Shown here in pieces: positions 17,411 to 23,035 of a DNA stretch of 23,035 nucleotides. The DNA is from a virus. Location: positions 1 to 23,035 of the IMG/VR virus record IMGVR_UViG_3300025671_000562; one strand, written 5' to 3'. The notes under the pieces are model-generated. The model was not told the origin of the DNA. It saw only the letters and a list, made by a program, of their open reading frames with translations, and did not search any database. Numbering within the stretch: the stretch's first letter is position 1; the number at the start of each line of letters is the position of its first letter. A program made the position numbers and the translations under genes.

Positions 17411-17595
17411 CAAGAAAAACTAACACAGCTTTGATTGCATTACTTGGTACAATATTAATGGGTTTAGCTACCTGGACTTTGGTCACACTTATAGAACTTC
17501 AATTAACAGTAACTATGATCCAATCTGACTTGATGTCTATAGATAAGCAATTCGGAAGAGTTTACAATTTCATAGATTCTGTTAGAGGTAAATAA
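17407..17595 (+). CDS. 62-residue single-membrane-helix protein
   Basis: The product has a basic N-terminus, one membrane helix (about 8-29) rich in Leu, Thr and Ala, and a C-terminal helix of mixed charge. The ATG overlaps the previous stop (ATGA) and an AAAGGAAAAG purine run precedes it. Topology is like that of small class holins or membrane accessory proteins. Several such proteins in the same block make a unique assignment impossible. Confidence 0.6.
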   Translation: MTRKTNTALIALLGTILMGLATWTLVTLIELQLTVTMIQSDLMSIDKQFGRVYNFIDSVRGK

Positions 17596-17876
17596 TGGCT
17601 ATTAGAAAAACTACTAAAGGTAAAAACGCAAACTATAGACCCACAAAGTCTGGAGCTGGTATGACCGCTAAAGGTGTTGCAAGATATAGAAGAGCCAATC
17701 CCGGATCAAAATTAAAGACAGCAGTAACAGGTAAAGTAAAAGCAGGATCAAAAGATGCTAAACGTAGAAAAAGTTATTGTGCTAGATCAGCTGGACAACT
17801 TAGAAACTCCTCAGCTAAAACTAGGAACGATCCTAATTCAAGAATAAGACAGGCAAGAAGGAGATGGAAATGTTAG
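17595..17876 (+). CDS. Lys/Arg-rich conserved phage protein (DUF6321-like)
   Basis: The 93-residue product begins in a TAATG overlap. It has about 30 percent Lys plus Arg. The segment GMTAKGVARYRRANPGSKL (22-40), then RRKSYCAR (57-64) and a final RRRWKC, match a family I recall as a small uncharacterised domain of marine phages and bacteria, probably DUF6321. Two Cys residues (62 and 93) are conserved in that pattern. It sits in the run of basic microproteins and may bind nucleic acid. Its end overlaps the next ATG by seven bases. Confidence 0.72.
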   Translation: MAIRKTTKGKNANYRPTKSGAGMTAKGVARYRRANPGSKLKTAVTGKVKAGSKDAKRRKSYCARSAGQLRNSSAKTRNDPNSRIRQARRRWKC

Positions 17877-18295: not shown

Positions 18296-18456
18296 TGAAA
18301 AAAGGTTATCACAAAACTAAATCTGGTAAGATGGCTAAGAAGGGTCTTTACTATAACATCAATAAAAAAAAACGAGCTGGTACTTCAAACTCTAAAAAGA
18401 AGTCTACTATATCTGCGAAGGCTTATAAGAATATGAAGTCTGGATTTAAGAAGTAG
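18295..18456 (+). CDS. 53-residue basic protein, conserved in marine phages
   Basis: The frame starts in a TAATG overlap. The product carries KKGLYYNINKKKRAGTSNS followed by STISAKAYKNMKSGFKK. The GLY-x-NI-x-x-K+-AGTS pattern and the KAY-x-x-M-x-x-GF end recur in many small phage proteins from aquatic metagenomes, as I remember them. It is the last gene of the rightward late block. Its 3' end overlaps the leftward DnaA-like gene by 11 bases, tail to tail. Confidence 0.65.
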   Translation: MKKGYHKTKSGKMAKKGLYYNINKKKRAGTSNSKKKSTISAKAYKNMKSGFKK

Positions 18457-18979
18457 TTATTGGCAACAACTCTGTTTTTAAATTTTCATACTCTTTCCAG
18501 ATAGAATATTCGCTACCCCAATATCTAGATTTGTTTTGTTTATTGTTTAGTGAATGTAAAACTGTAGTGTGATCTTGACCAAACACTCTACCAATAGATG
18601 ATATGCTTATATTATATTCTTCATGTAAAAGATTATAAAGTATACTTCTAGTTCTAACTATATCTCTAGTTCTACCTTTACCAAACACATCACGTTTACT
18701 TACAAGATATTTTGCACAAACTTTATCTACTATTGTATTAACAGTTTTTAAATTTGCGTTTTTGTAAACAACTCCAATTATTTTCTTATTACTATCATCA
18801 ATTGGTTGGTGTCGTAAAAGTTTTGCAGCATATAAAAATCCTTCTGAGAACCCTACCTCATATAATCTTTCTTCTTGGTCCGTTAAAAGGTAAAATGCTT
18901 TCTTAACTTTGTATACAAATGTGTTTTGGTCTAGGTGTTTTATATGTTTATTATAGTGTATGCTTGTATTTATGGTCAT
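18446..18979 (-). CDS. DnaA domain IV-only DNA-binding protein
   Basis: The 177-residue product has, at about 80-150, the full layout of the DnaA C-terminal DNA-binding domain: a VCAKYLVSKRDVFG helix, a basic loop (GKGRTRDIVRTRS), a helix, then SSIGRVFGQDHTTVLHS (128-144), whose DHTTV core contacts the DnaA box in bacterial DnaA. There is no ATPase (Walker) domain; residues 1-79 are unlike DnaA and mostly helical. It could mark a phage origin, recruit host factors, or compete with host DnaA. An AGGGGA SD precedes the ATG, and TATAAA occurs in the 48-base gap upstream. Domain call is firm; role is inference. Confidence 0.85.
   Translation of the reverse strand: MTINTSIHYNKHIKHLDQNTFVYKVKKAFYLLTDQEERLYEVGFSEGFLYAAKLLRHQPIDDSNKKIIGVVYKNANLKTVNTIVDKVCAKYLVSKRDVFGKGRTRDIVRTRSILYNLLHEEYNISISSIGRVFGQDHTTVLHSLNNKQNKSRYWGSEYSIWKEYENLKTELLPITTS
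18455..18483 (+). terminator. Weak terminator-like element at the convergent junction
   Basis: AGTT (18455-18458) and AACT (18468-18471) flank TTGGCAA, with one mismatch, and a T-rich stretch (TTTTT, then TTTT) follows from 18474. The stem is short and AT-rich, so termination would be weak. It is the only terminator-like structure I found where the late and early operons converge. Confidence 0.2.
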
Positions 18980-19357: not shown

Positions 19358-19567
19358 TTATTTACTTTTTTCAACTTCTTTTTTAATCAAAAAATCTATA
19401 TACTGTCTAGCTTTTTTTAAATCTTCGATACCATTTTTTCTTTTATATCTAGAAATATACTTAATTACATTACCTTCACAAAAATCAAATTCATTTTTAA
19501 TTATAAAATCTATTGGTTCAATCTTGTTTGCTATGTAGTGTGCTGGTTCTTTTATGTTGTCTGTCAT
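19358..19567 (-). CDS. DUF3310 protein
   Basis: I place the start at the ATG of MTDNIKEP (19567), which has AAAGGA six bases upstream, rather than at an in-frame start seven codons earlier. The 69-residue product reads PAHY, IEPIDFI, GNVIKYISRYKRKNG and EDLKKARQYIDFLI, the complete DUF3310 pattern found in many phages near nucleotide and DNA metabolism genes. The family is sometimes labelled nucleotide kinase, without strong proof. It lies in the leftward recombination operon downstream of a long hairpin. Confidence 0.88.
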   Translation of the reverse strand: MTDNIKEPAHYIANKIEPIDFIIKNEFDFCEGNVIKYISRYKRKNGIEDLKKARQYIDFLIKKEVEKSK

Positions 19568-19584
19568 GTTAAATCCTTTTTTAA

Positions 19585-19630
19585 GCAAGGTGGGGAAAAC
19601 GATTAGAAAGGGAAAAAAACCCCACCCTGC
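19585..19630 (-). other. Long stem-loop between the 100-aa gene and DUF3310 gene
   Basis: GGTGGGG (19589-19595) pairs with CCCCACC (19620-19626), and GCA (19585-19587) with TGC (19628-19630) across one mismatch, giving 10 base pairs and a 24-base loop that is pyrimidine-rich on the transcribed (minus) strand. No U tract follows the stem in the sense direction. It may be an RNA processing site, partial terminator or stabiliser between two operon genes. It ends 18 bases before the DUF3310 ATG. Confidence 0.5.
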
Positions 19631-19977: not shown

Positions 19978-20649
19978 TTATGATTGATTATTGTTTAGTG
20001 TTGCTTCATGCTTACTACTTACATCTCTGATCTGTTCGTAGGCTTTGAAGTTATTTTTCTTTAGATGATTAACAACTGATCTTACTTGATTCTTAACTGT
20101 AGTAAATTGCTTTTCAGTTTTACTTTGTAAGATTAGGTTAATGATCTCTTCTACATCCACTTCATCATCCATGTATGTAGGTTCTACAGATGGCTCTGAA
20201 GAATTTTGTTCAAATGGTTTGGCGTTATAACCATCTTCTAAATCCATTCCTGTCTTTAGATTAAGTGCATTTAAGAACGCATACTTTTTACTATACGACA
20301 TGGCTTGACCCGTTCCGTATTTATCAAGACCACCCATTGCAGTACAACCATCAATCACAACAAAACTTGCTGGATCATCAATGTCAGTTATTCTCATGGT
20401 GCAAGTTACAATTACAAATTTATCTGTAACATCTGTTATGTAATTACAAGTTGGATATAAACCATTTTTTAATAAAGCATCCATTGCAACTCTTTGCACA
20501 TCATCATGAAGTAAAGGATTAAAAGGCATACCTTTAACCTTACTTGCTTTCTTTACACTACTTGCATGATTACAAGCACTATGTAATTTCTTGTGTATGT
20601 TTGTCATATTTTTATTTCCCATTCTATATACGTTGTTTTCACTACTCAT
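19978..20649 (-). CDS. ERF-family single-strand annealing protein
   Basis: The 223-residue product carries the ERF signature at about 111-130, YGTGQAMSYSKKYAFLNAL, preceded by a beta-rich stretch with VTCTMRITDID. ERF proteins bind single-stranded DNA and promote annealing in phage recombination (as in P22). The C-terminal 60 residues are a separate helical, Asn/Lys-rich region after an acidic linker. The start at 20649 has GGGGAG six bases upstream and overlaps the exonuclease stop by eight bases. Pairing with a nuclease gene makes a two-component recombination system. Confidence 0.92.
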   Translation of the reverse strand: MSSENNVYRMGNKNMTNIHKKLHSACNHASSVKKASKVKGMPFNPLLHDDVQRVAMDALLKNGLYPTCNYITDVTDKFVIVTCTMRITDIDDPASFVVIDGCTAMGGLDKYGTGQAMSYSKKYAFLNALNLKTGMDLEDGYNAKPFEQNSSEPSVEPTYMDDEVDVEEIINLILQSKTEKQFTTVKNQVRSVVNHLKKNNFKAYEQIRDVSSKHEATLNNNQS

Positions 20650-21559
20650 ATTTTACTCCCCATAGTTTAGTTATTAATTGTTTTTGTTCATCTGCTAAAT
20701 CTTTATAGTAAAAGAAATGATTAAGGTCTGGTGGCTCCATCATTAAAGCTAACTTCTCTATACTACCTTCACAAAACATAATCATCTTCTCCCACAACAT
20801 AATCTTATCGATCATTTTATTATAAAGATGTTGCAAGTGATCTGCCTTCATTAACTCATGACTTTGATCAAAGATAATATAATCTTTATCATTAACATAT
20901 ACCAAGTGAGGTATCTTCTTTGTTGTCATGTAGTAGAACGAAGTCTGAGTTAAATTCTCAATCGTAGGCTCTGAAGGTAAATCTTGAGTGATCATGTTCC
21001 ACTCCTCTTTACCTTTAACCTTTCTTAAATTAGGTGGCTTAGTTTTTAATTCTATAAATTTTGTTTTAGTTTCATAATCTATTCTGCCAATCACCGGCTT
21101 GATCATATCAAACTCTTTTAGCTCTACATATCTTTCGCAAACTAATTTATCTTTACCTATAATTTCTTGCACAACTTTTTTTGTAATTGGAATACAATCT
21201 TCCGCAAATCTAACCATAGCTTCTCTGCCAAACTTATCCTTTGCGTCAACCGGTGGATTTTTATTGATTGCTTCTTGCTCAGCTTTAAAACAAACATTAT
21301 AATTTTTATCCCACTCTGTTTCTTTAATTGTTTTTGATTTATAAATTACATCTGCAATCATTCTCTGGACCACATTGTTTACTAGGTTGCCAAAGTTTGC
21401 TTTGTATCTAAATGGAAACTTCCTTCTAACTTCTTGAGGAAAAGTATAACCTAATAAATTTTTTGCAAAGGGTGTTGATGTAGATGAATAAGACCAATGA
21501 TCTAATCCTTCACCACCATTAAATATTGAGAACGCTTTTTCTATTTTTTGTTTTTCCAT
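20642..21559 (-). CDS. PD-(D/E)XK exonuclease (Cas4/RecB-like)
   Basis: The 305-residue product shows the PD-(D/E)XK core: Asp 161 in GRIDY, then Glu 170 and Lys 172 in FIELKTK, and a downstream LTQTSFYY (203-210) like the Q-x-x-x-Y motif of RecB-family nucleases. These enzymes resect DNA ends, producing single strands for an annealing protein, which is the next gene. It is the first gene of the leftward operon, with AAAGG upstream of the ATG, and starts just beyond the divergent control region. The YSSTSTPF near residue 24 resembles the N-terminal region of phage RecB-like nucleases. Confidence 0.85.
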   Translation of the reverse strand: MEKQKIEKAFSIFNGGEGLDHWSYSSTSTPFAKNLLGYTFPQEVRRKFPFRYKANFGNLVNNVVQRMIADVIYKSKTIKETEWDKNYNVCFKAEQEAINKNPPVDAKDKFGREAMVRFAEDCIPITKKVVQEIIGKDKLVCERYVELKEFDMIKPVIGRIDYETKTKFIELKTKPPNLRKVKGKEEWNMITQDLPSEPTIENLTQTSFYYMTTKKIPHLVYVNDKDYIIFDQSHELMKADHLQHLYNKMIDKIMLWEKMIMFCEGSIEKLALMMEPPDLNHFFYYKDLADEQKQLITKLWGVKYE

Positions 21560-22250: not shown

Positions 22251-22631
22251 ATGGCTAGATACACCTACGCATTTAGCAATGGGGATTATAACGATTGGCA
22301 TAGAAAATACGAGGGTATTGCTATGATTGATGTAGATAGTGTTGAGTGTTGTCAGTATTGTTATGAGCCTTTAGCTATTATTGAAACGTGTTATGATAAG
22401 GACCAGAAATATAAGGCTACAACCCTCTCAAAGATCATTGCTGAACGCCTAAACATACCCTGCTTTTTAGTATTCTATAAGGAAGTGAGTAAAGGTAGTC
22501 TAACTTTTAGAATCAAGCGTATACGGAGCTCTCAGACAGAGTTTCATTACATGAATGAGGATCAATGGGTAGACATCTTGCGAAACCTCCATATAAACCA
22601 TAGTAAAAACTGTAAGAAAGGAAAAAAATGA
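22251..22631 (+). CDS. 126-residue Cys-containing phage protein of unknown function
   Basis: I use ATG 22251; an in-frame TTG at 22245 precedes it. The product reads IDVDSVECCQYCYEPLAIIET at 26-46 in pieces: an Asp/Ser lead, three Cys (33, 34, 37) and PLAIIE, then a helix and strand PCFLVFYKE. I recall a broadly spread phage family with the same DVDSVE-x-C-x-x-C...PL-x-x-IE layout, unnamed. The fold may be nuclease-like but no catalytic set is certain. Base and Arg codon usage is less AT-biased than in neighbours (CGC, CGT, CGG, CGA appear). It ends in ATGA overlap. Confidence 0.65.
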   Translation: MARYTYAFSNGDYNDWHRKYEGIAMIDVDSVECCQYCYEPLAIIETCYDKDQKYKATTLSKIIAERLNIPCFLVFYKEVSKGSLTFRIKRIRSSQTEFHYMNEDQWVDILRNLHINHSKNCKKGKK

Positions 22632-23035
22632 ATACATCTAGGGGATTTTTACATATTACCTATAAATTATATCATCACTTAAATATTATTGACGGAGAAA
22701 AAAAATCACATTGTTTAAATGTATTTTTATCTGTTATGAAATATGCTTGGAAAAAAAATGGCTACAAAGCTGATCTAAGGCATGAAACAATCCATAAAGA
22801 CACCGGACTTTGCCGAACCACAATTAAATCTTGTTTGGAAACTTTAAATAAACTGAATGTTGTTAAATCTATTAGAGGTCGATCTGGTAAAACCTATATT
22901 GTTAATGAAGTATTTTTAAAAGCTGAAAAACTTTACGAGCCAACCCAGATAGCCGTTAAACCTACACAAGATAGCCGTTTTACGGCTACATTAGAAGAAG
23001 CATTATACATTAATAATATATCTAAAATAGTTAAA
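22628..23035 (+). CDS. Winged-helix replication/regulatory protein, 3'-truncated
   Basis: The frame opens at ATG 22628 (ATGA overlap, GAAAGGAAAA upstream) and stays open to the window end, showing 136 residues. Residues about 30-98 form a winged helix: helix, then IHKDTGLCRTTIKSCLETL as helix-turn-helix, LNVVKSIRG, a wing with RSGKTYIVN. A polar linker follows (PTQIAVKPTQDSRF). This is the typical N-terminus of phage replication initiators of the O/DnaD-like type, and also of some transcription regulators. The missing C-terminus would decide. Its place in the rightward early operon favours replication. Confidence 0.75.
   Translation, partial: MNTSRGFLHITYKLYHHLNIIDGEKKSHCLNVFLSVMKYAWKKNGYKADLRHETIHKDTGLCRTTIKSCLETLNKLNVVKSIRGRSGKTYIVNEVFLKAEKLYEPTQIAVKPTQDSRFTATLEEALYINNISKIVK

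Follow-up and report, generated by a model that had tools for sequence, protein, structure and literature searches.

A stand-alone DnaA domain IV protein in an HTVC010P-type pelagiphage and its candidate target box in the late-operon leader

In E. coli DnaA, domain IV contacts the bases of the DnaA box through R399 in the minor groove and through residues 432-435, 438-439 and 423 (PMC5742627; PMC5043019), and the general DnaA consensus is TTATnCACA (PMC5742627). In pelagiphages, 'DnaA' has been noted in all HTVC010P-related genomes (PMC6811365), and several isolates label the gene 'DNA replication initiation (DnaA)' or Bac_DnaA_C. The protein described here is thus part of the annotated pelagiphage gene set, and stand-alone proteins of DnaA domain IV (DnaA-IV) are also known from other phages; Rhizobium phage RHph_N28_2 likewise encodes a stand-alone Bac_DnaA_C protein, of 191 aa (QIG70462). 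The earlier pelagiphage annotation is that of an initiator, and it mentions neither the missing ATPase, nor the boxes in the late leader, nor the O-type gene. The late-leader boxes, the iterons and the assignment of the neighbouring gene to the O type are undescribed in the searchable literature, which excluded the main genus study (Du et al., 2021).

The window, a stretch of 23,035 nucleotides analysed as a whole, is a genome fragment (23 kb) from a SAR11 phage of the HTVC010P type, and phages of this type are among the most abundant SAR11 viruses. On its minus strand, an open reading frame with an ATG start (18446-18979) encodes a DnaA-IV protein of 177 aa. The gene is carried by 11/11 complete or long relatives tested, a homologue is encoded in 19 Pelagibacter phage records (tblastn), and IMG/VR holds about 454-500 further relatives with the protein. 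HTVC024P gp26, Greip gp42, Skadi-1_28 and HTVC010P gp46 are the same gene in the same position and operon, with 44-70% identity to the window protein and no difference in kind from it. The Rhizobium phage protein, on the other hand, aligns only in the DNA-binding region (37% identity) and has different neighbours. One pelagiphage contig (L238, PBPJ01000001.1) was found inside a bin labelled Candidatus Woesearchaeota archaeon, where mis-binning is very likely.

Both sequence and predicted fold identify the gene product as DnaA domain IV. The Pfam profile Bac_DnaA_C (PF08299) matches residues 81-145 (18545-18739, minus strand) with an E-value of 9.1e-17 and 61.3 bits, twice the curated cutoff of 31.5, while Bac_DnaA (AAA+) and DnaA_N give no match in the 177-aa protein at E<=1 and only ~75 residues lie ahead of domain IV. 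In sequence searches of the PDB (phmmer), E. coli 1J1V (5e-7) and M. tuberculosis 3PVP (2e-6) are matched, and above background DnaA only. An AlphaFold model built from 37 relatives has a pLDDT of ~82-93 at residues 75-170, and its top Foldseek matches are all DnaA, namely domain IV on DnaA-box DNA (3PVP, 1J1V), with a TM of 0.81-0.82 by target length; a model of the HTVC010P homologue matches 1J1V with a VIA Z of 13.2 and 1.7 A over 89 residues. The phage protein therefore has the predicted fold in common with domain IV of the E. coli and M. tuberculosis proteins, but it is without recognisable domains I-III and has an extra conserved C-terminal W..W helix region. Lacking the AAA+ ATPase domain III that defines a full-length DnaA initiator, it does not belong among these. 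The first-pass annotation had described a phage protein consisting of DnaA domain IV without the ATPase, and the profile search and structure prediction that it proposed both uphold this.

Conservation of individual residues was counted over 47 DnaA-IV representatives below 90% identity. The basic loop (residues 95-111; 18647-18697, minus strand) contains R103, equivalent to E. coli R399 of the minor groove, together with R109 and R111, and all three are invariant. The helix-turn-helix recognition segment GQDHTTVLHSLNNKQ (residues 134-148; 18536-18580, minus strand) contains D136, H137 and T138, equivalent to E. coli D433, H434 and T435, and together with R103 these are 98-100% conserved. The DNA-contact residues are thus intact, as had been claimed from the window alone, and these four base contacts are common to the E. 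coli and phage proteins. Two other positions differ from bacterial domain IV: that of E. coli R432 is an invariant glutamine (Q135), and that of P423 is S or T in the family and S in the window protein, and these changes could alter specificity. Neither of the outcomes named beforehand as telling against a DnaA identity, a missing DnaA-C hit or lost contacts, was seen, since the profile matches and the contacts are kept. We suggest, from the conserved base-contact residues, that the phage protein would bind TTATNCACA.

Residues 1-74 (18758-18979, minus strand) form a family-specific, putatively helical region with no known domain. Neither Pfam nor the PDB gives a match to the N-terminal ~75 residues, Pfam domain I included, which agrees with the earlier description of this half as novel. 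Y40, F44 and G47 are nevertheless invariant among the 47 representatives, and N19 and F21 are 98% conserved. The model is helical here, at a confidence too low for a fold call.

The gene is the last of a minus-strand run in the order nuclease, Erf annealing protein, 100 aa, DUF3310, 84 aa and DnaA-IV. The two upstream genes of the run at 19978-21559 (minus strand) are a putative nuclease (20642-21559), called from synteny with annotated isolates, and an Erf-type annealing protein (19978-20649; PF04404, 6.7e-7; phrog_155, 1.4e-13). In the annotated isolates, too, the DnaA-IV gene closes the nuclease/Erf run and points toward the end of the late operon; its placing as the last gene of the recombination operon stands. 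The DUF3310 protein (19358-19588, minus strand; 5e-18) is called 'nucleotide kinase' in PHROGs, yet only the DUF3310 part matches. Profile searches for DNA_pol_A and DnaB_C found neither in any of the 11 complete or long relatives, and Skadi has been reported to be without DNAP, helicase and primase (PMC10504331). This agrees with the first reading, which had found no DNA polymerase in the window, and supports the reliance on host replication that it proposed.

At the end of the window, an open-ended reading frame on the plus strand (22628-23035) encodes the N-terminal 136 aa of a protein cut by the contig end. Isolates annotate its homologues as 'putative transcriptional regulator', whereas PHROG replication-initiation/O-like families match all 10 homologues searched (phrog_270 in 10/10, phrog_678 in 9/10; best 1.5e-7), and judged by these profiles the gene encodes a lambda-O/DnaD-type initiator rather than a transcriptional regulator. 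Inside it lie two copies of a candidate lambda-type origin iteron, AGATAGCCGTT (22947-22957 and 22969-22979), at a spacing of 22 bp and out of frame with each other; the second lies within the dyad TAGCCGTTTTACGGCTA (iterons and dyad together 22947-22988, plus strand). The AT-rich stretch directly 3′ of the iterons (22989-23035, plus strand) could be an unwinding element. When the longest short-range repeat was taken from each of 38 representative O-type genes below 80% identity, the spacing was 22 bp in 17/38 and 21 bp in 7/38 (24/38 together); these repeats are nearly all at residues 103-115 and mostly out-of-frame, and their sequence differs by lineage. In synonymous-codon shuffles the 22-bp spacing arises 7.9% of the time, and 16/38 genes exceed the shuffles at P<=0.05. 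No such 21-22-bp repeat was found in the O-type genes of HTVC203P, L217 and L382. The profile match, the in-gene iterons and the AT-rich flank are shared with lambda O and DnaD-type replisome organizers; the differences are that the latter have four iterons, where genes of the window's type have two or three, and that no P-like helicase loader was recognised, the adjacent gene (gp15 family) giving no credible PHROG match.

The target-site evidence comes from the leader of the late operon, defined as the region from the conserved TATATATACATGG element to the first late gene in 53 non-redundant relatives. Exact TTATNCACA occurs in 22/53 of these leaders, which are not independent of each other and most of which lack it, against 0.69 expected, and 5 at most, from dinucleotide shuffles. 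Of the 560 permutations of the same letters it is the one found most often, and those next in rank mostly overlap its site. In a second set of leaders (n=13), anchored independently on the palindrome ahead of the start codon, the exact box is present in 6/13 against 0.16 expected. Allowing one mismatch, 31/50 leaders of the first set have the box, in a count that includes some false leaders. The boxes are on one strand only, at positions that vary between lineages, and their fifth base is A in 18 and C in 4. The late leader lies outside the window, and we infer the window's box from its relatives, of which the four closest that reach the leader (L008, L016, L049 and L050) all have one. Among the complete genomes, Greip, Lederberg, HTVC035P, L064, L070, L093 and L116 have DnaA-IV and no exact leader box; since several complete genomes keep the protein without the box, the link between the two is statistical and not universal. 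Lineages with different O-gene iterons retain the box, which argues that it is not the site of the O protein.

Over ~85 nt the leader itself (for example in L087, L112 and L386) is strongly C-rich and G-poor, with 27% C and 8% G compared to 17% and 15% genome-wide, a composition that could resemble a Rho-loading sequence. A sigma-70 scan of the late leader gave nothing above shuffles, and the late promoter is a presumed one. An imperfect palindrome, CTA-N-AT-N-TAG, is conserved immediately 5′ of the first late start codon (for example L053:606-725 and L052:34966-35070); this site has no clear Shine-Dalgarno and has an operator-like look.

The reading we favor, with a probability of roughly 0.4, is that the phage makes its own DnaA-box binder from the middle operon, that the main target of this protein on the phage genome is the late-leader box, perhaps with host boxes in addition, and that replication takes place at the O-gene iterons. 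A domain IV stripped of its ATPase and fused to a new helical N-terminal region would form a DnaA-box-binding protein, which would prefer TTATACACA and the late-leader fragment. Its target would be the leader's single box, which lies in G-poor sequence between the divergent early and late genes, a short way downstream of the presumed late promoter. As a product of the middle (recombination) operon, the protein would switch or tune late transcription there. It might also occupy host DnaA boxes. Replication would most likely start at the iterons within the O-type gene, a separate initiator gene, and would be served by the host helicase, primase and polymerase. We infer that the phage protein and not host DnaA acts at the leader box, and likewise the effect on transcription and its direction. 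Action at the late leader was absent from the roles listed in the first-pass annotation, and it is the only role with positive target-site evidence. A more specific version, in which the ATPase-less DnaA module is a late-gene switch at a box in a rut-like leader, for instance as a Q-like antiterminator or a roadblock, with replication from the lambda-type iterons, is rather doubtful.

Alternatively, DnaA-IV could be a replication factor that acts at the late-leader box beside TATATATA to mark or license an origin of the phage, its N-terminal region recruiting host DnaA or helicase, possibly at a second or accessory origin. The protein has its domain in common with the initiator DnaA, the genomes are without polymerase and helicase, and AT-rich DNA adjoins the leader box in the intergenic region from which early and late genes diverge. 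Among plasmids, known origins assisted by DnaA at a single box provide a precedent. On the other hand, the protein is without AAA+ and without a recognisable domain I, and the leader offers at most a single box, not the cluster of DnaA boxes with an AT-rich element looked for at an origin. No cluster was found at or near the DnaA-IV gene or at the O-type gene, and no segment of the DnaA-IV gene shows excess synonymous conservation, so the proposed survey of relatives for a linked origin gave nothing at this gene. The iterons and AT-rich flank are arranged as in the lambda origin, which lies within gene O; on sequence the O-type gene, with a dedicated initiator, is therefore a stronger origin candidate than any site associated with DnaA-IV. 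We consider a replication role unlikely; of the original interpretation, the domain IV without ATPase, its contacts and the dependence on host replication hold, and the proposal that the protein marks its own origin is weakened.

Three further indications were tried and set aside. TTATTCACA is present within the DnaA-IV gene in part of the HTVC010P clade, yet CAC, CAT and CAA alternate freely there, and an origin within the gene was rejected. GC skew follows gene direction and is uninformative as an origin marker. The genomes hold 15 DnaA boxes compared to 27.7 in dinucleotide shuffles, yet TTATNCACA is only 114th of the 560 permutations from the bottom, and the avoidance is therefore not specific.

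The protein could also compete with host DnaA at oriC and at DnaA-regulated promoters, halting host initiation, so that the replisome would become available to the O-type origin. As the box contacts are conserved while the initiation ATPase is missing, bound DnaA-IV should block host initiation, and the phage does use the host replisome; that boxes are kept or acquired in the phage's own late leader nevertheless indicates a phage target, and we regard host takeover as improbable. That the leader box serves host DnaA as a sensor of host state, with the phage protein antagonising or replacing it there, is very improbable, for although the boxes match TTATnCACA and host DnaA should bind them, this leaves unexplained a DnaA-IV with invariant contacts in every complete relative.

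The favored reading has a bearing on how HTVC010P-type phages, without polymerases of their own, start replication and late genes, and it offers two concrete testable sites, the late-leader DnaA box and the iteron origin in the O-type gene. Two annotations, 'DnaA initiator' and 'transcriptional regulator', are corrected.

We point out two other small proteins of these genomes. One, encoded at L052:3610-3924 (minus strand) and with homologues, is labelled 'Putative DNA binding protein' and weakly matches a profile of the terminase small subunit (phrog_1482, 0.0045); its gene lies a long way from terL. The other, in the window at 17595-17876 (plus strand), toward the close of the late run and just ahead of the convergent junction, is a very basic, K/R-rich protein of 93 aa that ends in RRRWKC and is possibly DNA-binding or packaging related.
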